The notes below the pieces were generated by a model that was not told the origin of the DNA, searched no databases, and was given only the letters and a program-made list of their open reading frames with translations. The translations under genes and the position numbers were made by a program. Below, in pieces: positions 12,107 through 53,125 of a stretch of 64,000 nucleotides of DNA. Numbering within the stretch: the first letter of the stretch is position 1; the number at the start of each line of letters is the position of its first letter. The DNA is from Megalonaias nervosa (taxonomy: Eukaryota; Mollusca; Bivalvia; Unionida; Unionidae): NCBI GenBank assembly GCA_016617855.1, contig JAECUM010009685.1:60835-124834 (forward strand), read 5' to 3'.

Positions 12107-12345
12107 GTTAGGTTTAATGTTATTTCTCAGTACAAGATAGGCTATACATGGCAGCCAGTATAATTGTTGGAAAGAGAACCCAGGAAAGCCTTGTAAGAAG
12201 CACCAACCCATGGGAAGCTACTAGCAGGTTTCGCACATACTCACATTACCCAAGCCTTAGACTCGAACCCACGCAGACAGAGGTGAGATGACAGTGATTA
12301 GTAAAGTTGAGCAACTCTAGACAAATCGGCCACCTGAGTCCTCCG
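12107..12345 (-). repeat. tRNA-derived SINE, copy 1
   Basis: Shares CAAGATAGGCTATACATGG and its flanks with the repeat at the window end. On the minus strand it has a B-box-like GGGTTCGAGTC near 12255, and the opposite end resembles the degenerate tail of the second copy. A Pol III-type retroposon is the simplest reading. Confidence 0.6.
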
Positions 12346-14180: not shown

Positions 14181-14559
14181 GCACCTGTTCCTATATTTTC
14201 GCACAACAACACTTGTTTGATTTTATTTTCATTTTATTCACTCATTCTAATTCCATCTACTTTATAACACAGTTAATATTAAATTATTAAAGTTATGAAT
14301 AATACATACACAACAAATATATCCGATAAATATGATATGCGTTTCGGTGCTTTCAGTATGTTCCGGTGCTTTTCAGTGTTTCTAACTACAGAGGGAGTAT
14401 GCAGGCCGGTGGTGGCCTTGTTTGATAATTTCGCCAATAGCTATTTTCACTGAATCATTTCAGTGTGTGAGATATCTAATTATTGTGCTTATATCATTCA
14501 TTGCTCAGTTTCGATATCTCACTGTGTTGAATTTGAGTTACTTTCTTTACTTTAGCAGC

Positions 14560-14640
14560 GGAGGGGGGGGGGCACCGGCTTATTTTGGGGGGCGACAACC
14601 ATCCCCCGGCCAAAGCCCCCCCCCCAATCCGGGGCCTTGG
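14560..14640. repeat. G/C homopolymer-rich block
   Basis: Runs of 9-11 G or C in otherwise AT-rich DNA. A small open frame across it (14422-14727) has no domain signal. The surrounding 14181-15700 region holds nothing else I can support. Confidence 0.6.
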
Positions 14641-20995: not shown

Positions 20996-21195
20996 AGCAG
21001 AAGCAGGGAGGGTGAACAGACCATTTTAGGAGGGTTTATTTGTGTCAATAATGCTAACCAGCAGAGAGTGTGAACAGACCACTTTTTAGAGCAGTCCATC
21101 TGTGAAAGTAAACCTTCCTACAAAAATGAACAGACAGGCGTCCATAATTCTAAACCGAGACCTCTAACCGACCGAGGCTTCTACCGGGTTATTTT
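20996..21195 (+). repeat. E0 left terminal inverted repeat
   Basis: Pairs with the right end. Contains an internally repeated theme (GTGAACAGACCA...) at about 21012 and 21070. Confidence 0.8.
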
Positions 21196-21239
21196 CTTGC
21201 GTGTCAAATTATTTACCAGTGCCTTATTGCTAACGAATC

Positions 21240-22229
21240 ACCCTTCACAAAAGTGAAGGCGGTGGTAATTGTGTATCTTCAGGAATTACTTATAATTGTT
21301 CACGTACAAATCCACGTTCAGGAGCAGCTGAATCTAGTTTGTAGATTGCAGGTCTACCCATGGATCTTACCACGCTGGAAATGTTGTGTGTGGTTACTCT
21401 GGGTCAGTCGTTCTTTTTATACCCCCTCCCTCAAGCTCCCCCTGCTCATATAAATATCTGACAGTCACATTACCTAGTACTGACTGTTTTGAGAAAGAGT
21501 CATGTCTCTTAAATGGTATGTGTTTCTTCGAGATTGCATTGATGGGTTTCATAGAACTTCAACGAGTAATTTCATTATTTAAAGCAGCTATCACACTTGG
21601 TAGTCTTGCAACCCATTCACGAGATCTCTTGTCCACCTGAACTTTATTCAAGGATATTTCCTGCGCATACTGATATCAAAAACAATCGCTCAGCAAGTAT
21701 TCGATTAAATCGCTCATCGAGATGAATTGCGGTGTGCCCGCATCTGATTTTTTGACGTTATGTTGTTGCATCTGTGAAGTTACTGCACCACAAAATTCTT
21801 TGCCAGGAACAACCTTTAGCAACTGTGGCCATCGCAAGGGCCCTCGTCGATAAATTCGTTCAAACGCAGATGCAATTCAGTTGCTTTGTTAATAGTGGTT
21901 CTGCTTCTTTATGTCTACATGCAACGTCAACGACAGTCAACGCGTATTTGTATGTGCGTGATTGACATCTACCAGTTTTAATAGTATCATGTGGTAAAAA
22001 TAAAATATCTGCCTGATGAACCTCATTGGGAGTGCCGACATCAAAAATGTGCGTACTGAATTTTGTTAGGTGGTGGTAGATAAAATTGCCATATTGCCTG
22101 TCGTCCTAACGAATCTGCAGCAACAGAACGTGTGGTACCTGCTGCATCAGCAAGTTTACTAATCGCTGATCTACCCCTCCAATATCCTCTTGGCCTATAA
22201 TAAACTGAGTCCATTATAATAGTTATCAA
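21240..22229 (-). pseudogene. INT: Maverick integrase (E0 lineage), decayed
   Basis: Read on the minus strand, the N-terminal GYWRGRSAI motif is in frame from 22229. After a frame break at about 22041 the catalytic core appears (NEVHQADILFLPHD, then YALTVVDVACRHKEAEPL), followed by the ERFNR segment with the third catalytic position near 21715, REWVARLP-like sequence, and a C-terminal VRYLYEQGELEGG segment near 21440. Several stops and frame changes, and loss of the central aspartate region, make it inactive. The family is the retroviral-like DDE integrase of Polintons, which inserts the linear element. Confidence 0.75.
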
Positions 22230-22232
22230 TGA

Positions 22233-22640
22233 TTAATTACCGGCCCCTAGCACTAGTTTACCTTTCATCGCAGATCTTATCAAAAAAGCAGCAAGTGATT
22301 CTCTGAGAGATTTATTTTTTACAGACTTTAGAGTGTGAATCAACTTCACATCTGCAATATGTCGTTATTGTAGATCTGGATTTTTATACGCCACATCACG
22401 AACGTGGCACGCTTGATCAATCGCATTTATTGGATATTTTCCAGGTCTTGGTTGATCTTTCTCGTCAAGTCGGATATCAAGTCGGGTTCCAGGACCACAA
22501 TCATTATATCCAGGACAATGTTTTTCGCCGGGATACTTAGCCCATGGAGCCCTTGGTAATTTTCCCAGTGAAGCAGCGATATCTCCGCCTGTTGCATGAG
22601 AGATAAATTTGTATGTTTTTGTACCACGTCACACACTTGC
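22233..22640 (-). pseudogene. PLA2-like (parvovirus VP1u-type) protein, E0
   Basis: The minus strand has a CGPGTRLD calcium-loop-like motif, then PINAIDQACHVRDVAY, and RHIADVKL after one TAA stop. It ends at 22233 just before the integrase start at 22229. The histidine of the catalytic HD pair is replaced by arginine (RD), and the ORF carries an internal stop. Placement directly upstream of the integrase mirrors the fused arrangement in E1 and E2. Confidence 0.65.
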
Positions 22641-22754
22641 CTGTAAGTGCACGCTTTTATTCCTCGTCGTTATTGTTTTTAATCCACTGGTATTGGTGGG
22701 TGCTCTGCATCGATCAAAATATAAATCCATATACTTATTATATATTTTTAAAAC

Positions 22755-23378
22755 ATGAATGTCACTGATTGCTCAGCGACAAGAAAGGAAGAGCTAATCA
22801 AGCATGATCCAGCGCTTCCAAATTCTATCAGAGCAATTGTCATAGGTCCATCTGGGTCTGGTAAGACGCAATTGTTACTTAACCTGATAATTAGATGGCT
22901 CAAGTGGGATAAGTTGTGTTTAGTGGCATCATCTGTAGATGATCAGCGAGGCTACGACGTGCTTAAAGATTTTAACGAAAATGCAAAGTTGTTGGACGAG
23001 GACGGCAATAATATTATTGATTTTATCACCGACATCAACGATGCGCTGTTGGTACATGATCTCAACGGGGGCATCAACTATCTCGTAGTATACGTTGATG
23101 TGATGCTAGACAAACAATCAAATCCAGCTCGGATATTTTCCAGAGGCAGACACAAAAACACTGATATTATATATGTTACTCAGCGATATGCGCAAATGCC
23201 TAAAGTGATCAAAGGTAACTGCAGTTTTCTGGTTGTCTTTAATGGTGTTGATATTCGCACGCTAAGAAACATCCACCAGACTTGGTGCTCAGGGGATATG
23301 GATACGATTAAGTTTAAAAACTTTTTTCTCAAAAGCGCAAGCGATTCCTCATGGATTTATCACGATAAATTTACGTGA
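22755..23378 (+). CDS. ATP: Maverick packaging ATPase, E0, open frame
   Basis: A 207-residue FtsK/HerA-type ATPase. Walker A is GPSGSGKT near residue 32. The Walker B strand reads LVVYVDVML near residue 108, where the usual pair of acidic residues is reduced to one. A sensor-like VTQRYAQMPK follows. In Polintons this ATPase is inferred to pump DNA into the capsid. It is the only undamaged gene of E0 and starts 115 bp from the divergent PLA2-like ORF. The altered Walker B makes activity doubtful. Confidence 0.82.
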   Translation: MNVTDCSATRKEELIKHDPALPNSIRAIVIGPSGSGKTQLLLNLIIRWLKWDKLCLVASSVDDQRGYDVLKDFNENAKLLDEDGNNIIDFITDINDALLVHDLNGGINYLVVYVDVMLDKQSNPARIFSRGRHKNTDIIYVTQRYAQMPKVIKGNCSFLVVFNGVDIRTLRNIHQTWCSGDMDTIKFKNFFLKSASDSSWIYHDKFT

Positions 23379-23494
23379 TTCTCAGTCGCGATATTGCATA
23401 GATCTCGATAAAATTTTTGGTTGAGATACCTGTGACCTAACCGCATCGCTAAAGCAGCAGTGAGGGTGAGTGTCCCGGGTTTCGATAAACAAGA

Positions 23495-23729
23495 AAATAA
23501 ACCTGTAGAGGCCTCTGTCGGTTAGAGGTCTCGGATTAGAATTATTGGCTCTTGTCTGTTCATTTTCGTAGGAATGTTTAATTTCACAAATGGACTGCTC
23601 TAAAAAGTGGTATGTTCACAACCTCTGCTGGTTAGCGTTATTGACGCTCGTCTGTTCATTTTCGTAGGAAGCTTTACTTTCACAAATAAACCCTATTAAA
23701 ATGGACTGTTCACCCTCTCTGCTGCTGCT
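23495..23729 (-). repeat. E0 right terminal inverted repeat
   Basis: Inverted counterpart of 20996-21195. It has one additional or longer internal repeat unit (TTTCGTAGGAA theme at 23567 and 23663). Confidence 0.8.
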
Positions 23730-24773: not shown

Positions 24774-25275
24774 AGTAGTAAGCTAAGAGGCGGATCCTAA
24801 AACAAATGCGGGTTCTAGACCAGAGACCCCACCCCCTTCAAAATAAATATATTCTGACATTTTTTCACCACCTCAGAGACCCCCTCTCCTAAATTTTTAT
24901 ATAAAAAAACCACCCTCCTCCTCCAAATTTCAGTAAGCTAAGGGGGGGGGGATCCTAAACCAAAAGCAGATTCTGGACCAGAGACCCCACCCCGAGGATT
25001 TATCGGAGAAAGAATAAACCTTTTATTGATATATAATATGGGTTATTATCCATCACCAATAAGACATGTTGGATTTGATCTAACAAACAAATTTTGTAAG
25101 AGATTTGATTCAATAAAATCAGCCTCAAGTTATAAAACCTAAAATAATAAGTAATTGTATCAAAAATGTTGGATATCATATATTACCAAAATATGGGTCA
25201 GTAACTGAAAATTTGATGACATTTATTGAGAATGTAGCTGATATTTTATTTGATAATGATATACAAAATATCAAA
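24774..25275 (+). repeat. E1 left terminal inverted repeat
   Basis: Matches 37665-38213 in reverse. The outer 55 bp theme (AGTAAGCTAAG...CCAGAGACCCCA) recurs about 155 bp further in (24932-24993). The inner part carries a gene fragment, described separately. Confidence 0.9.
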
Positions 25276-25277
25276 AA
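25037..25277 (+). pseudogene. Left-end copy of the NUMOD-like gene, broken
   Basis: Inverted duplicate of the ORF at 37654-37962, beginning MGYYPSPIRH. It loses frame after about 35 residues and lacks an internal stretch. It exists because the gene lies inside the terminal repeat. Confidence 0.75.
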
Positions 25278-25289
25278 TAATCAGTAGCA

Positions 25290-25565
25290 TCATAAGCGGT
25301 TACCATTCCATTTATTGGCCCCTTTATTGCCTGTGGTTCCTTTGAGAGGTCTTTTGCATGATGATGTCTTTCTTGTGACCGTTAGCACCCCCACAAAGTT
25401 TTCTTTTTGGCAAAATTCTTTCTGAATGTTTCTTTATGGGGTACTCTTCAATGAGGTAGAGAGCTTACACATGCTACTGATTATTTTAGAGGGCTCCTTG
25501 CATAGACACATCCCCCAGCGAATCACTAAACGAAACGAAACTTTAGAGATTCAGAGGACTGTCTA
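25290..25565 (-). other. Block conserved between E1 and E2, possibly a decayed lysine-rich ORF
   Basis: Aligns with 40968-41175 in E2 (shared TTTTCTTTTTGGCAAA and AATGAGGTAGAGA). The minus strand gives short lysine-rich readings such as KNFAKKK, but the frame is not conserved between the copies. I cannot tell whether it was a small basic protein or non-coding. Confidence 0.4.
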
Positions 25566-25573
25566 GGCATTGC

Positions 25574-25678
25574 GGTTTCATATAACCCCCACCAAATTAA
25601 ACCCCGGGGTAAGTGCAAAACGCACTCACCACGTTGTTCACGTGATGAGGATTACATGAAACCTTGGGGCGGTGCCCC
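25574..25678 (-). ncRNA. Structured RNA candidate, E1 copy
   Basis: On the minus strand a small hairpin (25666-25678, GGGGC-ACC-GCCCC) is followed by AA and a 15-bp helix between 25649-25663 and 25574-25588. The loop holds two hairpins: CATCACGT/ACGTGGTG (25628-25648) and GGTGAGTGC/GCACTTACC (25608-25630), which share GGTG and so partly exclude each other, plus the palindrome ACCCCGGGGT (25601-25610). The E2 copy keeps all helices although the arms of the 15-bp helix differ at eight or more positions. Wobbles are G-U only on the minus strand. Function unknown. Confidence 0.7.
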
Positions 25679-25689
25679 CTATCTTTGAT

Positions 25690-25810
25690 AAAAATTGGTA
25701 ATCCAGAACCATACCCACCGACATATGCTAGTGATGGGAATCGAACCACAGACCTTCAGTACGAGAATCCAATATTCCTGCACTGAGCTATGAGATTCGG
25801 TTACATGAAT
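25690..25810 (-). ncRNA. tRNA-like Pol III head, E1 copy
   Basis: On the minus strand an A-box-like TAGCTCAGTGC (25780-25790) and a perfect B box GGTTCGATTCC (25737-25747) are followed by T5 at 25690-25694, a Pol III stop. The full cloverleaf does not close (the D arm is shortened), so it is tRNA-derived, not a working tRNA. It lies just upstream of the structured RNA. Confidence 0.55.
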
Positions 25811-25864
25811 ATATTCGAGAAATTACTATATACTTACCAGTTACCTGTGTGAATGATTCTGAAA

Positions 25865-25868
<4 letters not shown>

Positions 25869-25901
<33 letters not shown>
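25869..25901. repeat. (TG)n microsatellite inside E1
   Basis: GT dinucleotides. 25811-26294 is otherwise AT-rich DNA without a supported gene. Confidence 0.95.
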
Positions 25902-25905
<4 letters not shown>

Positions 25906-26294
25906 CGCGAAATCTAAACTATATTGTACAGAAAAACGAAGCGGCTGTGTATTTATACAGAAAAAACGACAGGGCTGTTTACATTATAGGCAGAGACATT
26001 TTCATGGTCAATATCATCCTTCACGTGTAATACAGCGCTGTTTACATTATAGGCAGGTCTGACAAATCAATAGGTGGGTTTTTAGCAAGCCTGTAAAGAT
26101 TCAGGGAATTCTGTTTCAGTACGGCTTTAGAAACAGACAGACAGACTAATACACTTGGAAATCACTAATAAACCCGGAAATCACCAGCAACGCATTATTA
26201 CAGATAGTCTGAAAATTAATACAGACATAAAGTGCATTAGAACCAATCTATGTTCGACAATCCAGATACGATTTTTAAACAAGCTGGAACGGCA

Positions 26295-29200
26295 TTATCT
26301 CACTCTATAATGACCAAGTGCTAAAATATTACTTCCGTCTTTACAATATCTTTAATCATCAAAATTGCTAAGTCCACTTTTAATAATTGTATCAGTTTCA
26401 AGTTTATGAAGATTCGTTCTAATGACATTTGTCTTAATAAAACTGACATTATTATATAGTGTTGTTTTAAAATCGTTAAATTTCGTACATTTCTTTACAT
26501 AACCACGTGAAACTCCTTTCGCTTTCTTTGTCAGTTTATTATCATCGAGAATTACTGCATGTATTTTACTTCGAAGTCCAACAAACTCTTTCACAGGCAC
26601 AAACATAAATTCGTCCTTAAATTTACCGATAACTTTTTTATTCGTATTATCTTGAAATCCACTACTAGTCGGATAATCGGATAAATCAAATAAATTTTTA
26701 TTGTTATAAATATCTTCATAGACATCTTCACATTTTATATTATAAACTAGCGAGTCTGTATCAGTAAATAGCAACTCCGAATCTGGCCACTGGCATTTAG
26801 TAAAATTATAGTGAAAATCATACATTAGCCACTTTGATATATCAAGTACAGCCGCACCAACATAAATCGGTTTATTTAACTTTAAATTTGTCTTTCGTCG
26901 TTGTATTGCGACAAGATTTTCATTAAATATTTTCATGCTGACAAAACCATTATCGGTAACTAATTTACTTCTGCGATTTGTATCATTAACAATTTCTATC
27001 GGAACTCGCTTTCTAATGTTCTCCATTGTCTTTCCAAAAACTGAGTTATTCATTAGCTTAAAAAAGGTTTTCTCAAAGTCGGTCTTAGCCACAGCACGAC
27101 GTTTGGTATTTAAGTCAATATAATTTGACATCCGCCTAGACTGATTAAATTTTAGCACACGATGAACTTTTCTCAGAATTAGTCCAGCATCTACTGCTTG
27201 TTTTAAATTTTTGTAATGTATCACGTAATTTCTTTTATTTAGCAAATTTGGAACTAACTTATTAACGATCGAATTTTTTGCTGTTGTTATAGCTCGTTGT
27301 TTAGGTGATAGTAAACTGTAATCTATCATCATCGATTCTGCACAAAATGGGTAGTCGTTGTGTAGATCATGTAACGAACTAGGATAATCCAGATCAACTT
27401 CAACAAAATAACTGACATTTTCTGGTAAATCGTTTTCAGTTTCTTTAAGAAATTGATCTGGGGGTATCCAGTGAAACCCACCGCAGGGCATTGGCTCTGA
27501 CATGTCCCAACCATACAAATTCACACAATCTAGATAAATAATATGATTAGATGGGAGATTTTTATCATAATTTTTTAGATATTTATTATTAGCTACTGCA
27601 TATTTTTTTGTTATAACACTAATTCCACCTCTGATACCTTTTTCAATAAAATTAAACATATCGACATCTGTCAAGAGCTCCAATTCTATCTTACTTGTTT
27701 TTAGTAGAGCGTCCCATGACAGCCCGGGAGCAGAATAATACCAACAAGGATCTAGTCCATAATTGCTGTAGCTTACTCGACGAAAACTTTCAAAAACATC
27801 TGCTAGTAGTAATACATCTGTTTTTAAATATAAATCATGATAATCACGAAATGTTTGACAACTAAATTTATTCAAAATATCTTGTGCATATTTGTAATCG
27901 ACGTCTGTAATATCTTCATTTTTGAGCTGCGAGTAAAATTTATATTTGCCAGGCAGAGACGTTTCATCAAATCTGCTCCAGTTGTCGAGATACTCATACG
28001 GAAAGATACCTTTTCTTGTCAGTAGATTAAATTTATCTCCAAAACAACTTCGCAGATTATTAAAACTGCTACCAGATTTTACAGCATTTTCTACAAGATC
28101 TTCTAATGATACTAATGTAAATTGTAGACTGTCAATAAAACGTAATTTTCCGAGAGTAACTGACATAAATTTTTCAAAATTATTTGGTATACATTTTATC
28201 TTATTATTTAGTTTTAGTTTAGATTTAATTTCCTCGTTGCTAAAAGCTTCTACAATGATATGACTATCATAGCCGCGAAAGTTATGTAAAACGACAGGTA
28301 TAAACTTTGGTGCATGAAATTTTAAATTACAATTATTATGAGCCGCTCCACGATTCTGGCCAGTTAGATGACAGTGATCGCGCACTTTATCTTGGACTCC
28401 GTTGGGGTGTACTATAGATTTTTCGCAAATATGAGAATCAACCACTTCATCAAATTCAAGTTGTTGCTTAGATGTTATTTTCATTGGAGCTATCTTAAAT
28501 AATTTGTTAGAAATTTTATTAACATCATCTATAAGATTTTTTAGTAACCATACCGCCGGACTTTCAGATTCACTATCTTTACATCTGTATAACTTAACCG
28601 GACATGAAAACTTATCATCGACGCAACAAATTATTTTATAAGCTACTCCGCAAGGAACATGTTGCTGTATTTTTCTTGTACTTGATTTATTAGGATCATT
28701 TTCTGCACCTGCCACTGGAACGAGTAAACACTCAAAATCCGCATAAATAACGAAAGGCATATTTAGCTTATGGTCGTAATTTTTAAATTTTAAGACTTTT
28801 TCTTTTTCACTTGGCATTGTTATTCTTTGAACGTTGATACAGTAGTTAAGATGCTCCTGTAGTTTCTCATTCTTAGAAAAACCTTGCAAACATTTGTAAC
28901 ATAAATATTTCTTCTTTTTATTTTTATTATACTGTCCGCCAACTAAGCCGTTAAAGTTTTTTACCCAAACGTAATGTCCTTGATAAAATAATAAATTTAT
29001 TGTCTTTGTGTAGCAGTCTCTGAAATATACCTTGGGTAAACATTTTCTCGCTCATCTAGTCGGAAAACATTTACTGAAATATTGTTTTGTTTTTCAAACT
29101 TTGGTATCTGATTTTCTGACACTGGAAAAGTTATTCCGTTAAAATCTAGTTCGTCTTTGTATGGCAAATACTTTTCAATTCTATCATTATGGTCACTCTG

Positions 29201-29788
29201 AGGATGTTTCGCAGACAAAATTGACCAACGAAAACATGTTGTTTTTTGCATTTATACAACATTTTTTGTTTTTAATTTTTTTGTTTTGGAAGATCATCGT
29301 AAGAACTACCTCGAAGTATGTTATATTTTGCCGTGTGAATTAAAACTTCCTTTATCATTTCAAATTTCCAACCTGACCCAGATGAAGTAAATTCCTCCAA
29401 TTTTTTATTTATTTCTTGGTGTATTTCAGCGGCGACTGGCAATATTTGTTCCAGTTAATATTTTTCGTGATTTAACTGTTAGATATGGTTCTGAAATCTT
29501 GCTGTCGAAACTTGTATTTTCAAAAATTATATCAAGTATATCTTTCTCGATTGCATGTAACTTTGATAAAATCATATTATACTGTACTATTAGCTTGATA
29601 CTTTTGTGAGCTGCAAGTTCTTGAGCCATAACCGGTTGTAAAAGATGATATAAATTGGTAGAGTTAAAATTTGCTAAAACGTTTTGATTATCAAACCGAT
29701 AACTGTTGTCAAATCCTGTAAAAGCAGTCGCTATATTTTCAGGGTCCCCCATAAGGCTCTTTTTAGCTATATCACGCAATTTTAACAT
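26295..29788 (-). pseudogene. POLB: Protein-primed DNA polymerase B, E1
   Basis: About 1,150 codons. The N-terminal part (29788-29426) is followed by frame breaks near 29430 and 29250-29300, and another near 29000. The long open segment 28889-26352 holds the exonuclease motifs YADFEC, NFRGYDSH and the LKTDVLLLADV region, an inserted zinc/HNH-like segment (CHICEK...DHCHLTGQ), and polymerase motifs A (DCVNLYGWDMS), B (NSVFGKTMEN) and C (FTDTDSLVY). A premature TAA at 26352 removes the C-terminal DGxNxLxxGHY tail, visible to 26297. In Polintons it copies the linear element from a protein primer. It starts divergently from the HNH gene. Confidence 0.92.
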
Positions 29789-29867
29789 TGTATTATATGT
29801 AGCATTTTTATATTTAATTACAAATTACGTAAAAAATCAATTAGAGATATAAAATCCTTATAGTATA

Positions 29868-30680
29868 ATGACAGAAATTCTGAGATATATGAGACTGACA
29901 ACGGAAGAGCAAGAAACTTATCATGTTCATCCAAAGTACAACTTATATGCTGGAAATGCACTTGGTTCGGTTATTGACATAAAATCTAAAAAATTTATTG
30001 GTAGACCAACACCAGCTGGAATGATAATTTCCGTAAAAGGTGATGATACAGATAGAATTGAAATGTTTAGAAAAGATTTTGTTTATACTTTGTTCTGCGA
30101 TGACATTCCAGCTGGACAAAGAGTCTATAGAGTCAATAATTCGATTACTGATGACAATATTGAGAATTTAGCATTACAAAATGAGTATCAACCTCATCCT
30201 GTGTTTGATTTCTATGAGGCTAAAGATCGCGGAATTATTCGACATATAAGAACATAAAATGTTGTTGAAAATTTGAAAAATAACGGATACCTGTTTGTGA
30301 AGGTACGTGGAACTAAAACAGATTTTGTTAATTATCTATCACATAGATTTGTTTATGAAATTTTTAATAGCGCTATTTCAGGTAATCTAGTGATTGACCA
30401 TATTAACAAAATTAAAACTGATAATTGTTTAGAAAATTTAGATTTAGTAACACCAAAAGAAAACACACAACGTGGAGATACTGGTGGTGCTAGATATGCC
30501 AGACGTATAATTTCAGTAAATCTGGAGACTGAAGAAGAAATGAAATTTAAGTCAATTTATTCTGCTGCAAAATATCATAAAACTGACAACAAATCAATAA
30601 AAGATGTAGCTGATGGTAAAACTAAAACAGCAACGTCAATGTCAACTTTTGACAGATTTAGTTTCAGATATGACAATTAA
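29868..30680 (+). pseudogene. HNH endonuclease with NUMOD-type domain, E1 (one internal stop)
   Basis: A 270-codon frame with a single TAA at 30255-30257. The first half has a degenerate HNH-like repeat (FVYTLFCDDIPAGQRV ... DDNIENLALQNE). The second half has the full HNH_3 signature (HRFVYEIF ... VIDHINKIKTDNCLENLDLV), followed by a NUMOD1-like DNA-binding segment (FKSIYSAAKYH). Such proteins are homing-type nucleases of phages, organelles and large DNA viruses. It lies between polymerase B and the structural block on the opposite strand, in both elements, and overlaps the next gene tail-to-tail by 17 bp. Confidence 0.78.
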
Positions 30681-30960
30681 TGATATTTCTTAGCTCGGTT
30701 TTAGTTAAGCAATTATGTGCAAACATTAAAATATCATCTTTATCAAATGTTAATGTTATAAACGAACTTTCATTAAGTTTATTTTTTTCTGCCGTTGTTA
30801 GAAGTATTCTGTCATTTTCGCCAGGTATTATATTCACATTAACAGAATAAGCACTATAACCCGACAGACATTTTCGAACTGCTTCGGCTAGTTCCTTGTA
30901 ATTTAATATATTAACTTTTTGATGATATTTTACATCTGGAGATTTTGTTTCGCTGGCCAT
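30664..30960 (-). CDS. Conserved small Maverick protein, 98 aa, unknown
   Basis: Matches the 93-residue ORF at 47167-47448 over its whole length (shared KYHQ.VNILNY.ELAEA core, and a hydrophobic FITLTFDKDDI-type strand). No known domain recognised and no membrane segment. The tail-to-tail overlap with the HNH gene is conserved in E2. It remains open in both elements although neighbours are broken. Confidence 0.7.
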   Translation of the reverse strand: MASETKSPDVKYHQKVNILNYKELAEAVRKCLSGYSAYSVNVNIIPGENDRILLTTAEKNKLNESSFITLTFDKDDILMFAHNCLTKTELRNIINCHI

Positions 30961-30994
30961 TATTATTATAAATTAGATAAAAGTATATTATAAT

Positions 30995-31453
30995 ATGGAT
31001 TTAATGAAACGACTTGCTGATATATACGCGGAAGATTATATCTCTAACGATAAAGTCGCCAACAACACAATCACTAACGACAATTTTATCTCTGGAGATA
31101 TAGACAAATTTTCTAGCTATAGCGAAGATGATATTTTGTACAATAACGAATCTGACGATGCAGTAGTTACTGTCGCTGACAGAAAAAATTACAGCAGGCC
31201 GACAACTGGACGATATAATGCTAAGTATCACATTGCTAAAAAAATAATAAAGATTAATTTTACTGTTGCCGAACAACAAATATTTTGGCAGCTTTACAAA
31301 CCGTTTTTAAATCTGAAAATAACTGGCCATCAAAGGAGCATAAAATGCGATTTTATTTTTGCTAAAATATTCAATTTAATGCCAGTTGATGATGCAAGAA
31401 AATTACATTTAATTTCGTTATGTAAACTATCAAATGTAAATCTGTACTTGTAA
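30995..31453 (+). CDS. Maverick protein, 152 aa, unknown
   Basis: The N-terminal half is acidic and asparagine-rich. The C-terminal half begins RPTTGRYNAKYHIAKK and ends with a helical, leucine-rich segment. E2 has the same gene in pieces (47488-47960). The end differs between the copies, and the E1 stop may follow a small deletion. It sits where other viruses of this kind sometimes carry a late transcription factor, but I could not recognise one. Confidence 0.6.
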   Translation: MDLMKRLADIYAEDYISNDKVANNTITNDNFISGDIDKFSSYSEDDILYNNESDDAVVTVADRKNYSRPTTGRYNAKYHIAKKIIKINFTVAEQQIFWQLYKPFLNLKITGHQRSIKCDFIFAKIFNLMPVDDARKLHLISLCKLSNVNLYL

Positions 31454-31477
31454 GATACGAACAAATTTATAATAATA

Positions 31478-32850
31478 TTATTGCATCACAGTCGATGAAA
31501 TCGACCTAGTTGGTACCCAGCTATTAAATTTATCGCTATATCCTCTCCATTTAACTAAGCTTTTGTTGCCGCGTTTTTTGATTACTTTTTCAATGACATA
31601 TACGTCTTGGGAAGTTTTCTGGAGTTCCTGCTCGTAAAAACTACCAGTTATTGGCTTACCCAATAAATCCGTCAGCGCGTATGTTACAGGTATTGTTAAA
31701 AGTACTTTATCAACAACAAAAACTTCTTCGTTCCAGTTTGGAATAAATCCTTTTTCAAATGTTTTTTTTTTTTTCGTCAGAAAAGTTCTAACTTTATCAC
31801 CAACTTTAAATTTATGTCTGCGGTACATGTTTTCGTTCGCTAATATCGGATTTTTAATTGCGTCGTTTGGCGACATTTTAGTGGTTCGGTGTTTCGTGTT
31901 ATCATATTCATCAACAATGTTCTGTAAATTGTTAATATATTTATTTGTATTTTTAGCTGTCAAATATTTGTGTATTTTTTGTTTAGCGTGCGATTAAATC
32001 GCTAAACGACAACGCTTTTACCTTCATTTCCAGTAACATATTTTTTGATATTATTTTGGAGCAAAAACCGCTCAAATATTTTATTAAAAAATTCTGCTCC
32101 GTGATCGGTCCAGATTCTATTTGGTTTTCTTTCTGTAGTTGTTATTATTTGTTTCAGCGAATCTGTTATTGACGTTCCTGTCTTGTCTGAAACTGGAACA
32201 CTAAAAGCATATTTACTAAAAACATCTACAACGTTAAACAAGTATTTCTTATTATCGTTAAACTGAGCAAGATTTGACACATCAACTAAATCTATTGCCC
32301 AGATGTCATCAGCGGCATTTGCGAAAACTTTACGTCGAGTAAACTTTTTTTTAGGTTTATGTAATTCAGTTGCAAGATCATCATACAATTCCTTTCCGAG
32401 TCCAAATTTATATTTTGCTCCAATAAAACCCTGCACCAACTTTCTATGAATACGTTCTCGCATATTTATAGGCTCCATATCACGAAGTTCGTCTAACATT
32501 ATTTTATCGCAGTCTGATTTTGAGTTCTCTACACGAACATTATCAGGATGTTCTATATCACGGTAGCAGATATCATGGCGCATTGCTATCTCATCAACTT
32601 GATTGTAAGGTTCTTGTCCTGGCAGTGGATTATCGTTCTCGTCAAGTTGTTTATCTAACGGATTATAAGGTCCAGTATATTTATGGTCTGGCAAGGTCCA
32701 ACCGCCTTTTGGTTTCGGTAATTTGCCAATTACTTTATGTATATCTATACCTGTTCCTATTATTTCCCGGCGATTACAACGTTGACAGTATGTGACAATT
32801 TTATTTTGCTCAAGACAGAGATCTCTATCACAATCACACTTACATATCAT
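31478..32850 (-). pseudogene. INT: PLA2-like domain fused to chromodomain integrase, E1
   Basis: One open frame (32850-32002) runs from a cysteine-rich start (CKCDCDRDLC, CQRC) through a PLA2-like motif (YTGPYNPLD, then HDICYRD) into the integrase core, with the first aspartate in WAIDLVDV and the second in WTDHGAEF. The codon for the catalytic glutamate is TAG at 32002-32004, and a base is missing just after it. The C-terminal part (31963-31478) holds the FKVGDKVR SH3-like segment and a chromodomain (VIEKVIKK ... KWRGYSDKFNSWVP). The integrase would insert the element; the role of the PLA2 domain here is unknown. Confidence 0.87.
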
Positions 32851-32881
32851 TCTATTAAAATAACTTTTACAATAATTGTTT

Positions 32882-33046
32882 TCATTCTTCCACTAAAATA
32901 ACGTCCCTGACATTGTCAGGGCGACCAGTTCCCAACGATTTCTTTAAAAACATACTTTTTCTTTTTCCGCAGACTGCGTAAATACTTTTTAGCATCTCAT
33001 TGATATTTTCTGTTTTAGTTTTACATTTAAGACAATATGTTGACAT
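32882..33046 (-). CDS. Small zinc-ribbon protein, 54 aa, E1
   Basis: Begins MSTYCLKCKTKTEN and has a second half-site reading YAVCG, where E2 has CAICG, so one metal ligand is lost in E1. The length and two CxxC knuckles resemble the DUF5679-like ribbon proteins of large DNA viruses. It starts with the sequence TATAATG, shared with several genes of both elements. It lies between the integrase and the protease. Confidence 0.6.
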   Translation of the reverse strand: MSTYCLKCKTKTENINEMLKSIYAVCGKRKSMFLKKSLGTGRPDNVRDVILVEE

Positions 33047-33095
33047 TATACACAAGTTTAGATAAAATTAGCAAAATTATAATTTTGTGCAAGCT

Positions 33096-33540
33096 TTAGA
33101 TAGCTTTACAAAAATTTATTGCAATCTCATCATTAGCTTGAGAAGGGTATTTGTCAAACTGTAAAATAAATTTAAAAAAATTAAATTTAGGCTCTAATCC
33201 AAAGGATTGAGACATTTGTTTAATGAACATTATGCAATAATATCCACAAGCAGAAGTTCCAACAGGCTGAATTTGATTAGACGAATAATTTATTACTTTA
33301 TATTTTCGAGACATATATTTTTTTATTGCGTCGCTCGGAGGAAGTTCAAACGAGTCAAAATAATTGTCATTATAAACTGCTACCCAATGTGTACCAGATC
33401 CGTCATTGAAATCTTGTATATTTATCACGCAGGAACCACCTGAGATGTTAGCAAGTTCATCTTTGGAATAAACTCCGTGAAATCCGGGAACCGATCCTAA
33501 CTTATCAAGTATATCAAAGTTACTTAGCGGGGGGGGGGGC
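33096..33540 (-). CDS. PRO: Adenain-like cysteine protease, E1
   Basis: Ulp1/adenain fold residues appear in order: GTHWVAV (His), YFDSFE (Asp), QIQPVGTSACGYYC (Gln and Cys). In Polintons it is inferred to mature capsid proteins. The reading frame is open up to 33713, but that upstream part belongs to the overlapping pX-like gene. The natural start seems lost in or near the G run at 33529-33539, so the start is uncertain. E2 has a clear start at the equivalent place. Confidence 0.85.
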
Positions 33541-33697
33541 GTGTTCCAGGCAATGTTAGTCCACATCCGATTCCTAGTAGGTCTGGAAGAATACTTCCCG
33601 CTAATCCCACCATAAGTAAAGGAAGAAATCCTCCTTGTTTTGTTCGAGGACGCTTTGTTTTCCTTTTCTTCGACGATTTTGTTTTTCGTTGTGGCAT
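33524..33697 (-). CDS. Small basic adenovirus pX-like protein, 57 aa, E1
   Basis: Starts ATATAATG with a lysine/arginine-rich head (MPQRKTKSSKKRK), then GGFLPLLMVGLAGSILP, the basic-plus-GGFLP pattern of adenovirus core protein pX. It is in a different frame from the protease ORF that overlaps it. E2 has the same protein with a frame break. A DNA-condensing or membrane-active virion role is inferred. Confidence 0.6.
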   Translation of the reverse strand: MPQRKTKSSKKRKTKRPRTKQGGFLPLLMVGLAGSILPDLLGIGCGLTLPGTRPPPR

Positions 33698-33719
33698 TAT
33701 ATTTATCAGTCACATAAAA

Positions 33720-34109
33720 TTAAACTAAAGGTTTCTTTATACCATGTCCTTCAACTACTTTTTTCGTTGTGCCAGATATTGCTCCAGACGCTGCTGCTAG
33801 TCCTAATGTACCTAACACCGGCAAAATGTTTGGTAAAAACGTTCTGGCTATTACTGCAAATGCCGGACCGAAGAAACCACCTTGTTTTGCCATCGCTGTT
33901 ATTTGTGCGGCACTTAAATTTAAAACAAAAGGTTTTTTGCGATCGTATTTATTTGCTTGATTTTTGGTTAACATTAATTTTGTTAAAATACCCGTTTGAG
34001 AGCCAGGATTAACCTTTAATGATACCTGTCTCTGCTTTGCAACAGCAGCTGCTAATTTTTTAACTTGGCCATCAGTCAAATATATTTCTTTTACAATATA
34101 TTTTGTCAT
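33720..34109 (-). CDS. Conserved virion-type protein with GGFF hydrophobic tail, 129 aa, E1
   Basis: The N-terminus (MTKYIVKEIYLTDGQ) leads to a lysine-rich middle, then KQGGFFGP and a glycine/alanine/leucine-rich amphipathic tail ending HGIKK. Mavericks of many animals carry a protein of this plan next to the capsid gene, compared in the literature with adenovirus pX/pVI. It is open and complete here, but its N-terminal half is deleted in E2. Confidence 0.7.
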   Translation of the reverse strand: MTKYIVKEIYLTDGQVKKLAAAVAKQRQVSLKVNPGSQTGILTKLMLTKNQANKYDRKKPFVLNLSAAQITAMAKQGGFFGPAFAVIARTFLPNILPVLGTLGLAAASGAISGTTKKVVEGHGIKKPLV

Positions 34110-34155
34110 CTTATATTAAACTTACAGATTAAACTTGCAAAATTACTAGTAATGT

Positions 34156-35690
34156 TTAAACTTGTACGGTCATTTTACCTCCAACAGAATCAATCGTAAT
34201 AGATCTGTCGCTGATCACCAACGCGTACACGTACAACTGCGCTACTGGAACTGCTCCGAGTGTCCAAGTAATTTCAATATCAGCTGTCGAATCAACTGCT
34301 CGCTCGCTATGTTTACTAACATCAAAATAAAATATTGGATAAAGTGTACGAAATTCCTCTACTGATATCTGAGATCCATCTTCTACATCCTGATATTTTT
34401 GCACTGAGTCGAGCAGGTACATGTAAGGTCGAGTAATATTTTTATTAGCGTCATCTGCAAAATTACATTCTATCGCTCGCTCCGGATATTGCTTTGAATT
34501 TAGTCTAGCATATATTCGTCTAACATCAGCGTTATCAAATATTGCATTATTTTGTTGTTGGTCACCACGTTGCGCTTGCCGTTGAAATACAACAAATAAT
34601 TGATTCGGCAGTTGTTCGCTTGATGTAGTTGTGACTCGCCATGTGTACTCAGTAGTATTTGGAACTGCTGTTTGATATATTTTATGTTGCTGAAAATAAA
34701 TTCTGTTTGTATGTTTTTGCAGCATATCATTTAATTCTGACATTTTAGTGATGGTGTTATTCGCGGCATCCACAGCGCAAGTTTGTTTATGATAAACTGT
34801 ACATCAGTTCCGCCTGACCTAAACAGACAGTCGTTTTGTTCTGCCCGATCTAAAATAAGCGTATGTTTAACTCCACGAAATACTTTATTGTAATCACGAC
34901 ACAAGCCAAATATTGTACTTAGTGGCAGCATCATTGTAATTTGAAGTGATCCTGCTGCAAGTGTCTTTCTCCTAGCAAAACCTTCATTGTAACGTGCATT
35001 TCTTACGCTAATTGTATTATTAATCAAAATTAACATTGCAACGCCGTCTGCAGCTGCACCTGGTGGTGTTATACCAAGATTATTACAAGCAGCAATAAGT
35101 GAGACTCTTGTAGCGTCTGCATCAGCGTCTGCAGCTGGTGCTGCAATGCCAAAATTATTAGCATTAGCGATAAGAAAATCTCTTACAATTACAGCATCTG
35201 CAGCTGCATTGCCACCGTGTTTAAATGCTTCTTTTGAAATAAATTCTCCAGATACTGCTACACCACGTCCAGTATCCTTAAACCACATCATATTAGTTGC
35301 AGTCGATCTGCAATAATCATCGGAAGATGAAATAATATTTAAGATTGTACTTGCAACTTGTAAGTGACTTGAAATATCTTCAACAGTTTGATTGGCAAGT
35401 TGATATCGAGCACTTTTGAATAAGCACCAGCCATTATTTATAAGAGCTATTTCTGCGCCTGCTCCAATTGCAACAGATGGATTGGCCACTGTCATAATCT
35501 GACCGCGAACTTCCAATATTGCTTTGTGTGGAAGTAGAAATACATCTTCGTCTCGATTATTAAATGTTCTAACACCAGCTTTATTTGGTCCATTAGAATT
35601 TTCATCGAGATACTCAACATACTCAAATTCTGTTACAGTGTCATCGATGTCATAAGTTTCTGCTAAATCGAGATAATTTTTAACAGACAT
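34156..35690 (-). pseudogene. MCP: Major capsid protein (double jelly roll), E1, one frameshift
   Basis: Two open segments (35690-34731 and 34773-34156) together match the single 505-residue ORF of E2. The frame break is at about 34740-34770. Conserved capsid features include FLLPHKAILEVRGQI, RGVKHTLILDRAEQND and a C-terminal half with NITRPYMYLLDSVQKYQ and IEITWTLGAVPVAQLYVY. A loop around residues 161-223 is built from ~25-residue alanine/aspartate-rich repeats. In Polintons this protein forms the pseudo-hexameric shell. Confidence 0.85.
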
Positions 35691-35735
35691 TTTTTATTTA
35701 TTAGATTATATAACATTTTATTGCGGCGCTGTTAC

Positions 35736-36116
35736 TTAAGATATTAATGTTTGTATAATCTGCTCGCCCTTTGGTGATAAAAGTGTTTTTGTTGTTGTTA
35801 TCATAGCACGTTGAGTTTCTTTTGTTGGAGCGATTTCTGATATAACCTGTTTGATCTCAGATGAAGACGGTGTGCCTTTAATTTTATCAGCTAGTTTTTG
35901 TCCCACCGCAGTTCCAGCGGCAGATGCAGCTCCAGTTGCAAAAGCTTTACCTGCGTCAAGTGCAATTGGTGCAACTTTACGCGCGATTCCCGGAGCATTT
36001 TCAATAATTTTAGTAAATATATTTCCCAAAAATCCACCAACTATTTTTCTTCTGTAAATGTTTTTCTCTGTTTCATTATATCTGAGGTTGTTACCTGAAA
36101 AAATCTGGCGACACAA
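35736..36116 (-). CDS. Amphipathic alanine-rich virion-type protein, E1
   Basis: From YRRKIVGGFLGNIF it runs into an amphipathic, alanine/glycine-rich segment (GKAFATGAASAAGTAVGQK) and a polar tail. The plan resembles adenovirus pVI-like membrane-active proteins. The first ~20 residues of the open frame are probably not original, because the deletion junction at about 36085 lies there. The E2 counterpart (52010-52360) is broken. Confidence 0.5.
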   Translation of the reverse strand: MCRQIFSGNNLRYNETEKNIYRRKIVGGFLGNIFTKIIENAPGIARKVAPIALDAGKAFATGAASAAGTAVGQKLADKIKGTPSSSEIKQVISEIAPTKETQRAMITTTKTLLSPKGEQIIQTLIS

Positions 36117-37084
36117 TGACAGGAAACCTGTTTATGTCAAATCAACGAGTACTAGGTCTAGAAACAAATTATCCGCCAATAAATGTTGTTGATACACAAG
36201 CTGATAGTTATGCACAACTAAAATCCGTCGATAATAATAAACTAGATAAATCTGGCGGAATTTTAAGCGGTAACTTAGATATGTCAGAAAAAAAAATAAT
36301 AAATTTGGAGACCAGGTATCCACCAGCAAACTTAAATTATACACAAGCGGTAAGTTATGCAATCCCGACAGAATATGAGAGTTTTTCAAAACGAGGTATA
36401 TTTAAATATCTCGGTATGTACTACCATGACAAAGAAACCTTGGTTAAAATCGTTACTATGACGTCAGACGTAGAGTTAATTATTAAAGTGTACGCAAACG
36501 CAATTTTGTCAATGATACGTAAAAAAGACCCAGAATTTGATCCGATTATTGTTAACAAGTCTCTAAAGATAATCAAAACTTTTGACGATGAAATTAGTAA
36601 TTTTAGTGTTGATGAGCGAGAAAAGGTTTTTGAAGAAATCAATGAAACAAAGTTGGAAGTAAAGTCTGATTCTTATTATGATATAAGTGAAGAAGACGTT
36701 GTTCCATTCCCATCAATCCAGTACTCTAGACAATTGTCACAGCGAAATTATTACAAAGAAATTAAAACAATACTCACAAAACCATATGAAAAATTAATGT
36801 TAAAAGTAGCTTCTGCTGTTGGTCTTCTTACAATTGAACTAGATAAGCTTAAGAAATTAATGCTAGCAAATTTCGTAGTCGCATATGCAATTATCAGACA
36901 ACATCTTGTTCTCAGAAATTTCAAGTTAGATCAGTTGAGTTTAGTTTTAGGGTATATTGATGAAACAGAAATCGATTACAGTAATTTTGTAAATAAAACA
37001 GATTTGTATGAGAGTGAAGTAGAAAATAGTTTTGATTCATACGCTTGGTTAAAGAAACAATATGCACTAACAGATGAACGATAA
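36116..37084 (+). CDS. Chimeric ORF: fibre repeats joined to an unknown Maverick protein, E1
   Basis: Residues 1-82 are two tail-fibre-like repeats (MTGNLFMSN, SGNLDMSEKKI, each followed by a TQA.SYA segment). At about 36362 the frame passes directly into the C-terminal two-thirds of the protein that in E2 starts at 56723. E2 has the fibre and this second gene as separate, longer genes, so the E1 ORF arose by internal deletion, yet it is open for 322 codons. Any function is unknown. Confidence 0.7.
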   Translation: MTGNLFMSNQRVLGLETNYPPINVVDTQADSYAQLKSVDNNKLDKSGGILSGNLDMSEKKIINLETRYPPANLNYTQAVSYAIPTEYESFSKRGIFKYLGMYYHDKETLVKIVTMTSDVELIIKVYANAILSMIRKKDPEFDPIIVNKSLKIIKTFDDEISNFSVDEREKVFEEINETKLEVKSDSYYDISEEDVVPFPSIQYSRQLSQRNYYKEIKTILTKPYEKLMLKVASAVGLLTIELDKLKKLMLANFVVAYAIIRQHLVLRNFKLDQLSLVLGYIDETEIDYSNFVNKTDLYESEVENSFDSYAWLKKQYALTDER

Positions 37085-37157
37085 GATGATACTTCGTCAG
37101 ATGTTTATAACAAATAGTGGTGCTAGAGTTTTTAATATTACATAAAAATATTGTATA

Positions 37158-37649
37158 ATGAAAAAACAAATCATCGATTTCAACCACATATCAGAAGAAA
37201 TTCCAAAACAAGATGTTGAAGCATTAGTACAATATTATAAATTTTATCATAAAAACCTTTGGTGTGTAAAAGAATGTTATAAATCCTACCGTAAAATACT
37301 TCGAGTAATATCATATTTGCCATTGTTAATGACTAGCTATGGTATAATCTCAAGTGGAGCATTATTAAATCCGTTTTTGTTAATTATTTCTGGTATCGGT
37401 GTCTCTCTTTCAACGGCATGTAAAAAGATCGAACCCAAGCTTGAGACGCAAAAAAATGCTTGTAAGATAGCAATTATCACTTATAAAAAATTATTTGATC
37501 AAATACGATCTTACTTGCGAGGTGCAAAATATGATATGGATGATTTAATACGCGAGTTTCGTATTATTGATAGTATGTTAACGGATATTCTGCCAATGAG
37601 AGTCAGCATGTATGAAAAAGATTATCATAAAATATGGTTGCAACAGTAG
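37158..37649 (+). CDS. Conserved two-helix membrane protein, 163 aa, E1
   Basis: Starts GTATAATG. Two adjacent hydrophobic stretches (ISYLPLLMTSYGIISSGALL and NPFLLIISGIGVSLS, residues ~54-90) are followed by a long charged helix containing a YKKLFDQIRSYLRG motif. Proteins of this plan recur in animal Mavericks. The architecture, two membrane helices and a long helix, recalls SLATT domains, but I infer that from shape only. It is open in both E1 and E2. Confidence 0.7.
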   Translation: MKKQIIDFNHISEEIPKQDVEALVQYYKFYHKNLWCVKECYKSYRKILRVISYLPLLMTSYGIISSGALLNPFLLIISGIGVSLSTACKKIEPKLETQKNACKIAIITYKKLFDQIRSYLRGAKYDMDDLIREFRIIDSMLTDILPMRVSMYEKDYHKIWLQQ

Positions 37650-37653
37650 ATGT

Positions 37654-37962
37654 TTAATTTTGTATAGCTCTAGAAATATCATTATCAAATAAAATATCAA
37701 CTATATTGTCAATAAATGTCATCAAATCATCTGACCAACCTCCTATTCGTTCGTCATTTTCAGTTGCGAACAACCATACTGACCCATATTTTGGTGATAT
37801 ATGATATGCAACATTTTTGATACAATTACTTATTATTTTAGGTTTTATACCAGTATAGCTTGAGGCTGATTTTATTGAATCAAATCTCTTACAAAATTTG
37901 TTTGTTAGATCAAATCCAACATGTCTTATTGGTGATGGATAATAACCTATATTATATATCAA
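37654..37962 (-). CDS. NUMOD-like DNA-binding protein in the terminal repeat, 102 aa
   Basis: The segment from residue 15 reads like a NUMOD1 module: GFDLTNKFCKRFDSIKSA, then an ISNCIK helix and YGSVWLFA. No nuclease motif is attached. The gene lies inside the right terminal inverted repeat, and a broken duplicate occurs at the left end. E2 keeps only a short remnant at its right end (about 58518-58560). Confidence 0.55.
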   Translation of the reverse strand: MIYNIGYYPSPIRHVGFDLTNKFCKRFDSIKSASSYTGIKPKIISNCIKNVAYHISPKYGSVWLFATENDERIGGWSDDLMTFIDNIVDILFDNDISRAIQN

Positions 37963-38213
37963 TAAAAGGTTTATTCTTTCTCCGATAAACCCTCGGGGGG
38001 GGGGGGGCCTCTGGTCCAGAATCTGCTTTTGGTTTAGGATCCGCCCCTTAGCTTACTGAAATTTGGAGGAGGAGGGTGGTTTTTTTATATAAAAAGTTAG
38101 GAGAGGGGGTCGCAGGTGGTGAAAAAATGTCAGAATATATTTATTTTGAAGGGGGTGGGGTCTCTGGTCTAGAACCCTCATTTGGTTTAGGATCCGCCTC
38201 TTAGCTTACTACT
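37665..38213 (-). repeat. E1 right terminal inverted repeat
   Basis: Inverted match to 24774-25275, including the duplicated outer theme and the NUMOD-like gene. A run of 13 G (37995-38007) replaces a shorter sequence seen on the left. Confidence 0.9.
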
Positions 38214-41181: not shown

Positions 41182-41294
41182 GAATTTAATGACCCCCCCC
41201 CCCACCAAATCAAACCCCGGGGTAAGTGCAAAACGCACTCACCACGTTGTTTAACGTGATGAGAGGTCATTAAATCCTTGGAGCGAAGCTCTCC
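41182..41294 (-). ncRNA. Structured RNA candidate, E2 copy
   Basis: The 15-bp helix pairs 41263-41277 with 41182-41196 (minus strand), with two G-U wobbles and no mismatch. A hairpin lies beside it at 41280-41294. The enclosed core (about 41200-41262) is nearly identical to E1 and keeps the two overlapping hairpins and the ACCCCGGGGT palindrome. The arms differ from E1 by compensating changes, including U-A to A-U, U-A to G-C and A-U to C-G. Confidence 0.7.
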
Positions 41295-41302
41295 ATCTTT
41301 TT

Positions 41303-41425
41303 AAAAATGGTGATGGCAGTCCAGAGCCTACCCGTCGATTTTGTACGTGACGGGAACCGAACTCAGGGCGTCAGTATGATAACCCAACATTCTAACACTG
41401 AGCTATGAAATTCAGTTATAAGTAC
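41303..41425 (-). ncRNA. tRNA-like Pol III head, E2 copy
   Basis: The minus-strand A-box-like TAGCTCAGTG lies near 41396-41405 and a B-box variant GTTCGGTTCCC near 41352-41362. T5 is at 41303-41307, at the same relative place as in E1. The arms do not form a full cloverleaf. Confidence 0.5.
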
Positions 41426-52429: not shown

Positions 52430-53125
52430 CTATTGTTCGCGTAAGTGTAAATAATAAGTAACAATTTCATTGTTAAAATCCAGTTGTCGTCCAGACTGAT
52501 CTGTCAATTGCATATTTACTTCTGTTATTTGATTTTCAACGTTTGACGGATAATAAATAACCTGACGTGGATTAATTTGCATGATAGATCCTTGTGGAAC
52601 GTCTGGTGAAAAACTATAAATCTTTTGTCCTTTACTACCCTTAGCTGAGTAGAATTCAGATGCAATAGAGCAATTTATTAATATTGCGTTTACATCAGTT
52701 ATATTTACTGGATTTTTACCGTCATACGTTCTGGTTTCATCAGGAGGAGCACCTAAACTTGTATTAATAAATCCTATCAGTGGTGCGATACCTTTTATTG
52801 TTGAAAACTCGATTAACATACCATTTTTTAATGTTATTCTGGCTCTTAACGTGTTATAATTTGGTCTTAGCTCAAAATCGTCTGCAACTCCTTGTGGAAT
52901 TTTAAATGTTTTCCATTTATCTCTAGTAATACTTACGTTTAAAAATGCAAATTCATCGTTTACTCCAGTTTTTACCTTAGCCATAGCATGCCAACAAGTG
53001 CAGGAAATTAGTCCAATTTCATATTGTTTTTCATGATCTAGTTCTGTTGGCGGAATATACTTTACCGAAAAATTTGCGCTATCTTTATCAGATTGTCCAG
53101 AGTTTAGTAATAATGTTGCTGACAT
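52430..53125 (-). CDS. Penton-like minor capsid protein (single jelly roll), E2
   Basis: 231 residues, beta-strand-rich, with the layout of Polinton minor capsid proteins: a YIPPTELDHEKQYEIGLIS first strand pair, a FAFLNVSI region, a central LIEFSTIKGIAPLIGF, and a C-terminal VNMQLTDQSGRQLDF ... VTYYLHLRE. In the family it fills the fivefold vertices, where a fibre would attach. It is open and complete. E1 lost it by deletion. Confidence 0.8.
   Translation of the reverse strand: MSATLLLNSGQSDKDSANFSVKYIPPTELDHEKQYEIGLISCTCWHAMAKVKTGVNDEFAFLNVSITRDKWKTFKIPQGVADDFELRPNYNTLRARITLKNGMLIEFSTIKGIAPLIGFINTSLGAPPDETRTYDGKNPVNITDVNAILINCSIASEFYSAKGSKGQKIYSFSPDVPQGSIMQINPRQVIYYPSNVENQITEVNMQLTDQSGRQLDFNNEIVTYYLHLREQ

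Follow-up and report, generated by a model that had tools for sequence, protein, structure and literature searches.

Mavericks link transposons, virophages and adenovirus-like viruses. Among genetic elements with a polymerase of the protein-primed type, adenovirus produces VA RNA, a short and highly structured RNA, and phage phi29 encodes beside one genome end the pRNA, which is branched and has a known function. tRNA-derived SINEs carry a tRNA-like head with an A and a B box, and hairpins are said to mark the transcript ends of some giant viruses and virophages. In polinton-like viruses, noncoding RNAs were sought with Rfam and ARAGORN, and that survey names matches to tRNAs, group I introns, miRNA, snRNA and snoRNA (PMC12220804). 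TMER4 of murine gammaherpesvirus 68 consists of a tRNA-like part and stem-loops, with no obvious constraint on the stem-loop sequence (PMC4838037). The TMER of murine gammaherpesvirus 68 is the nearest known arrangement to the one described here. No Maverick-borne hairpin RNA was found in the titles and opening lines of abstracts of the open-licence literature that was searched. Our sequence comparisons suggest a previously unrecognised structured RNA of the Mavericks in this genome.

The window, that is, the whole stretch of 64,000 nucleotides from Megalonaias nervosa that was analysed, carries two Mavericks, E1 and E2. Each of them holds one copy of a long hairpin, here called the rod. The main features are as follows.

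24774-38213: E1 Maverick, with TIRs and ATTCC on both sides
24774..25262, plus strand: E1 left TIR
25263..25567, no strand assigned: E1 inner-terminal stretch from TIR to rod; this stretch or its E2 counterpart is matched by 80 of 80 sampled copies
25574..25663, minus strand: E1 hairpin (rod), with basal arms, conserved middle and apical GTGAGTGC-GTTTT-GCACTTAC
26352..28889, minus strand: E1 polB-type ORF of 845 aa, on the same strand as the rod and ending 689 nt upstream of it
37676..38213, minus strand: E1 right TIR
41182..41277, minus strand: E2 hairpin copy, with other basal arms, the same middle and apex, and a bulged run of about five G on the 3' side

The E1 rod is on the polB strand and lies about 310 nt inside the left TIR. 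The two elements can be aligned from the inner repeat across the rod and on to a point about 50 nt upstream of a tRNA-like stretch; from there to polB they no longer align. An E1 insertion of some 75 nt divides this alignment into two blocks. The features that mark Mavericks were found in E1 and E2 taken together, namely TIRs, rve, a polB-type ORF, a double-jelly-roll protein and an A32-type ATPase. When ten ORFs were compared with Pfam, those of E1 matched chromo, rve with a PLA2-like domain, and double-jelly-roll, and those of E2 matched A32-type ATPase and HNH_3. Four of the ten, the 845-aa polB ORF among them, had no Pfam match of their own. The polB label comes from relatives: among 120 listed (46-52% identity), 11 carry PF03175, a polB domain. 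The E2 polB (42774-45370) is interrupted and leaves two open pieces, at 44036-45370 and 42774-44030. The ORF at 32002-32850 joins phospholipase A2-like and rve integrase domains in one frame. At 20996-23729, inverted repeats of 85-87% identity (20996-21208 and 23481-23729) surround an A32-type ATPase ORF (22755-23378, plus strand), and this short element looks like a reduced third Maverick.

The initial annotation had proposed a 15-bp minus-strand helix, and this helix was confirmed in both copies: 25574-25588 pairs with 25649-25663 in E1 and 41182-41196 with 41263-41277 in E2, each at 15 of 15 positions. It had also claimed that the arms differ between the copies while all pairs are kept. This proved correct, since nine of the 15 basal pairs differ and all of them are standard in both copies. 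Six pairs are identical, three have a one-sided change and six a two-sided change (T-A to A-T twice, C-G to T-A, G-T to T-A, T-A to G-C and A-T to C-G). When the arms were mixed across E1 and E2 as a control, 9 and 10 of the 15 positions paired. All 15 pairs were kept in 0 of 200,000 trials of random substitution in the same numbers, and in 43 of 200,000 trials when random letters were placed at the observed positions only. As minus-strand RNA, E1 folds at -54.0 kcal/mol (z -8.6) and E2 at -51.3 kcal/mol (z -7.5), while the plus-strand RNA folds are weaker (z -1.8 and -3.8, respectively). In a GC-adjusted scan of both strands of the 64-kb window (6390 windows of 100 nt, step 20), E2 ranked first and E1 second, E1 being barely ahead of a simple-repeat window at 59621 (-5.77 vs -5.75). 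A palindrome at 14541-14640, outside the Mavericks, folds at -54 kcal/mol on both strands and is lower than the rods by raw energy.

A core of about 60 nt with inner hairpins had been expected within the helix. This part did not stand as the stable form, and both copies fold instead as one continuous rod. A cloverleaf or three-hairpin core was rejected, as forcing a local hairpin costs 14.6 kcal/mol in E1 and 9.0 kcal/mol in E2 relative to the rod. The rod measures about 91 nt and has 39-40 pairs. Counted from the base, it has about 21 pairs up to a mismatch, then 7 pairs up to a 2+2 internal loop, 2 pairs up to a second mismatch, and 9 pairs capped by a 5-nt loop. E1 is without one T that is present in most of its relatives, and the commonest E1-family sequence, with this T, folds at -57.0; E2 relatives without the long G run fold at -55.9.

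The exact 22-nt apex occurs at 395 places genome-wide (200 + 195), and a reversed-pattern control at none. From the first 100 of these 395 places as listed, 80 were taken in contig order, 12 had already been fetched as E1- or E2-like loci and 8 were not taken. All 80 sampled copies match the inner-terminal stretch of E1 or E2 on the rod's strand, within 302-402 nt per copy, some of these matches being short (34-44 nt, among the first 40 copies). The proposal that the structure is Maverick-borne was thereby supported. All 80 fold better on the rod's strand (means -52.0 vs -35.4). The tRNA-like stretch is matched in 75 of them, and five keep the rod without such a match. Genome searches with the rods themselves gave 1668 first-look candidates for E1, unconfirmed as copies, of which 40 were scored at 94-100%, and 1876 for E2, likewise unconfirmed, of which 40 were scored at 92-100%. 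In 28 of 28 E1-like loci (E1 included), there are matches to the inner-terminal stretch, to the linker and to the sequence leading to polB; the left-TIR match is absent in three and the polB match in one. The inner and upstream stretches are matched in 30 of 30 E2-like loci (E2 included), with the left-TIR match absent in four and that of polB, which the flank barely reaches, absent in six. The higher identity of the rod in both sets is partly built in because the loci were chosen by rod similarity. The rod adjoins Maverick inner-terminal sequence.

Covariation was assessed in an alignment (A7) of 59 rows, made up of 55 of the 80 sampled copies, E1, E2 and one relative of each. In A7, 96.5% of 2274 cells pair, a percentage raised by the omission of the remaining 25 copies (near-duplicates and about a dozen with truncated, broken or slipped rods), vs 32-51% after a shift of the partners by 1-3 columns. 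Two-sided changes are found in 37 cells vs 11.8 in shuffled alignments (0 of 500 shuffles reach this number), to be read with the facts that cells are not independent and that the counted structure was drawn from minimum-energy folds. The covariation score is 0.110 vs 0.083 (0 of 500). Pairs with two-sided change show a weak excess (8 vs 4.9, reached by 19 of 500 shuffles), and pair types are not in excess (26 vs 25.3, 221 of 500). RNAalifold, unaided, gave 29 pairs, mostly the same as in the rod, five of them with two-sided changes. Insertions in the basal arms are paired as well, column 13 with column 99 in 19 of 20 rows and columns 11-12 with columns 93-94 in four of five. On a tree built from the flanks, 12 coincident changes fell at pairs, where random re-pairing gave a mean of 3.8 and a maximum of 10 in 100 runs; the true register was not better than a slide of -3, which gave 13. 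Coincidence alone is not decisive because few branches split the families and many columns change on those branches. The true register is singled out by the keeping of pairs, not by coincident change. The claim of a structure with compensatory changes is thus supported by covariation across several arm families and by coordinated arm indels in many more copies, and the covariation check in further copies was positive by score, though two of the four shuffle measures were weak or null and the slide of -3 was unbeaten.

Column conservation is 95-96% in the middle of the rod, perhaps inflated since an exact apical match may favour young copies, 85-93% at the base and 80% in the flanking sequence. 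Because the apex was the search key, its conservation across families cannot be judged from the sampled copies; in two sets not keyed on it, the exact apex is present in 18 of 29 (A5) and 25 of 30 (A6). The middle of the rod is conserved in sequence, and at the base it is the pairing, more than the sequence, that is kept. The wobble pairs fall on one strand. The initial annotation had described them as G-U on the minus strand, and this polarity stood across the family alignment, with 358 G-U cells vs 24 A-C cells, a count that favours G-U because the structure came from energy folds allowing G-U only. Four nearly invariant pairs account for 229 of the G-U cells; in all, G-U is seen at 18 pairs and A-C at 12. 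The polarity did not stand among the point changes of the E1 family, which have no strand bias (7 fit the minus strand only and 8 the plus strand only). The absence of bias within this family is as expected of copies decaying after insertion, yet gives no support. The polarity also failed in a small hairpin of E2, which holds an A-C mismatch. This hairpin belongs to a group of features upstream of the rod.

25666..25678, minus strand: E1 small GC hairpin, GGGGC-ACC-GCCCC, immediately upstream of the rod
25690..25694, minus strand: E1 run of five T that separates tRNA-like stretch and rod, possibly a Pol III stop
25737..25790, minus strand: E1 tRNA-like stretch, with A-box-like TAGCTCAGTG from 25790 and B-box GGTTCGATTCC at 25747-25737
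41280..41294, minus strand: E2 small GC hairpin, with a two-sided change at one pair (G-C to A-T) and one A-C mismatch
41303..41307, minus strand: E2 run of five T, in the same place
41353..41405, minus strand: E2 tRNA-like stretch, with A-box-like motif from 41405 and degenerate B-box AGTTCGGTTCC at 41363-41353 (hand-counted)

The small GC hairpin varies between families, and its pattern was recognised in 38 of the 80 copies. An A-box-like motif is present in 56 copies, a relaxed B box in 65 and both in 49. At least four T lie between the B box and the rod in 64 of the 65 copies that have a B box (at least five T in 24), and after the rod in five of 40 copies within the 65-85 nt examined. With the T run ahead of the rod, the simplest Pol III transcript would stop before the rod. 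The tRNA-like stretch of E2 does not fold beyond chance (z -0.27), and that of E1 does so only slightly (z -2.2). ARAGORN and Rfam recognised no tRNA in these stretches, and no Rfam family reached its gathering threshold, the matches lying far below the gathering scores. In the linker from B box to rod (25671-25735), a CCATTTT-like motif is conserved in many families, and a further short inverted repeat can be seen by eye.

The gene next to the rod was compared in seven further copies chosen for differing arms, using 2.3-2.4 kb upstream of each. Matches were to polB in two, to HNH in three and to the ORF at 52430-53125 in one; one had no match. All of these gene matches lie on the rod's strand. 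The HNH matches, to the HNH ORF of E2, are weak (37-47%), and that to the unannotated ORF 52430-53125 is 34%; except for the two copies with polB, the whole-Maverick setting of the seven rests on weak gene matches and inner-terminal matches. An element of the polB 3'UTR was rejected as a candidate, polB being upstream in just two of the seven. Since the upstream gene differs among these families, the rod looks like an end module and not like a feature of the polB 3'UTR. In the few families compared, the position of the rod is constant while the gene upstream varies, and the rod seems to follow the element end rather than a gene. At loci L140, L141, L142 and L145, the same end module stands beside other genes (HNH-type or the relative of ORF 52430-53125), hinting that end modules are exchanged between families. 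The dispersed repeats at 12089-12298 and 63905-64000 recur upstream of the rod in loci L144 and L146. IMG/VR gave no relatives by two patterns and none by E1 polB alone, and one contig with a 40% polB relative had none of the rod or box motifs tried, except for one A-box-like match inside its polB.

On balance, we consider it rather probable that these sequences form a structured-RNA module just inside one TIR of several Maverick families, most likely a protein-binding hairpin. Towards the terminus, the proposed module would consist of the tRNA-like stretch, the T run, the small GC hairpin and the rod, in this order. We infer that the rod is transcribed on the minus strand and works as RNA. 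The basal stem may need only to exist, as a clamp presenting the conserved part, while the middle and apex would be read by a protein of the element or of the host. Because the rod accompanies the element end rather than any single gene, its function most likely concerns the whole element. Its role may be either that of the 3' end of the last transcript towards the terminus or that of a part of a small RNA from the tRNA-like promoter. The former, in which the rod would terminate or stabilise transcripts heading for the terminus, is a possibility that we put forward tentatively. Six of the seven families have a match to some Maverick-type gene upstream on the rod's strand, whichever the gene, and E1 has no AATAAA or ATTAAA from the polB ORF to the rod, with two AATAAA about 246 and 258 nt past the rod. 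However, the interval from polB to the rod contains four AATAAA and one ATTAAA in E2, one of the seven upstream stretches is without a match, and a simple hairpin signal would not need a middle conserved at 95-96%. The latter form, a Pol III small-RNA gene in the manner of TMER or VA RNA, in which the hairpin downstream of the tRNA-like promoter is processed to small RNAs or serves as a decoy, appears doubtful. The tRNA-like stretch and then the hairpin follow on one strand, with the former matched in 75 of 80 copies and both boxes in 49 of 80, and a variable basal stem under a conserved duplex, as found in pri-miRNA, is likewise seen in the rod. Against this stand the run of at least four T before the rod in 64 of 65 copies and seldom after it, the poor folds of the tRNA-like stretches (z -0.27 and -2.2) and the geometry of the rod, as a 5-nt loop with about 40 pairs is not typical of pre-miRNA. 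It is a bolder and quite unlikely idea that the structured-RNA module is a Maverick-borne noncoding-RNA gene at one terminus, common to families with different neighbours, with a rod that an element protein binds and that replication or packaging requires; it would then be a eukaryotic counterpart of genome-end packaging RNA.

The main non-RNA rival is a hairpin of single-stranded DNA that would act as a binding or packaging site, for instance in the displaced strand during protein-primed replication. In its favour, the rod stays beside the terminus, and the minus-strand DNA also folds beyond its shuffles (z -3.5 in E1 and -4.6 in E2). On the other hand, the contrast between strands is larger with RNA energies, the plus-strand DNA of E2 nearly equals its minus strand (z -3.9 vs -4.6), the minus-strand DNA of E2 favours a branched form over the rod, and the rod has many wobble pairs, which would be weak in DNA. 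We regard this explanation as rather unlikely. Two other readings are disfavoured. A tRNA-derived SINE that landed in an ancestral Maverick, with the rod as the SINE body, would account for the tRNA-like head with A and B boxes and for the aligned length of about 265 nt. It is nevertheless highly improbable, since all 80 copies match the same Maverick inner-terminal stretch (a sample from the first 100 listed of 395, so that a minority elsewhere is possible), Maverick flanks lie on both sides of the module in 28 of 28 E1-like and 30 of 30 E2-like loci, no A-rich tail is present in the sequences inspected, and in five of the 80 copies the rod is present but a tRNA-like match is not. The other reading, an inverted DNA repeat with arms homogenised by mutual conversion, agrees with the variation of paired arms between families. 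Conversion should give Watson-Crick arms, however, while the wobble pairs of E1 and E2 sit at different positions, and there are 358 G-U cells but 24 A-C cells, subject to the caveats of the energy-fold structure and the four nearly invariant pairs; this explanation too is very unlikely.

Knowledge of Mavericks rests mostly on proteins, and a conserved, covarying hairpin at the element end, shared by families with different neighbouring genes, suggests that the element has a function beyond its proteins. The candidates are transcript ends, a small RNA, and replication or packaging. With tRNA-derived SINEs, the module shares a tRNA-like head with A and B box over about 265 nt; unlike them, the sampled copies were found solely beside Maverick inner-terminal sequence and have no tail in the sequences inspected. 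The rod is comparable to adenovirus VA RNA as a candidate short, highly structured RNA of a DNA element with a protein-primed type polymerase, but the A and B boxes lie outside the rod in Mavericks and it has no Rfam match. It is likewise comparable to phi29 pRNA as a structured RNA candidate beside one end of an element with such a polymerase, but pRNA is branched and of known function whereas the Maverick feature is a rod without an Rfam match. The noncoding RNAs of polinton-like viruses also occur in relatives of Mavericks, and the rod, unlike those found there with Rfam and ARAGORN (PMC12220804), matches no Rfam family. The comparison with the TMERs shows differences in the run of at least four T between the two parts (64 of 65 copies) and in the lack of a clear stop after the rod (35 of 40). 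There is also one rod in place of pre-miRNA stem-loops, no tRNA fold is kept in E2, and the rod is not known to give small RNAs. Of the properties of a TMER-like arrangement, internal A and B boxes upstream of the hairpin are present, and a Pol III stop after rather than before the hairpin is not. The likeness to the TMERs lies in a tRNA-like part with Pol III-type boxes followed by a stable hairpin on the same strand, carried by a DNA virus in one case and a virus-like element in the other.
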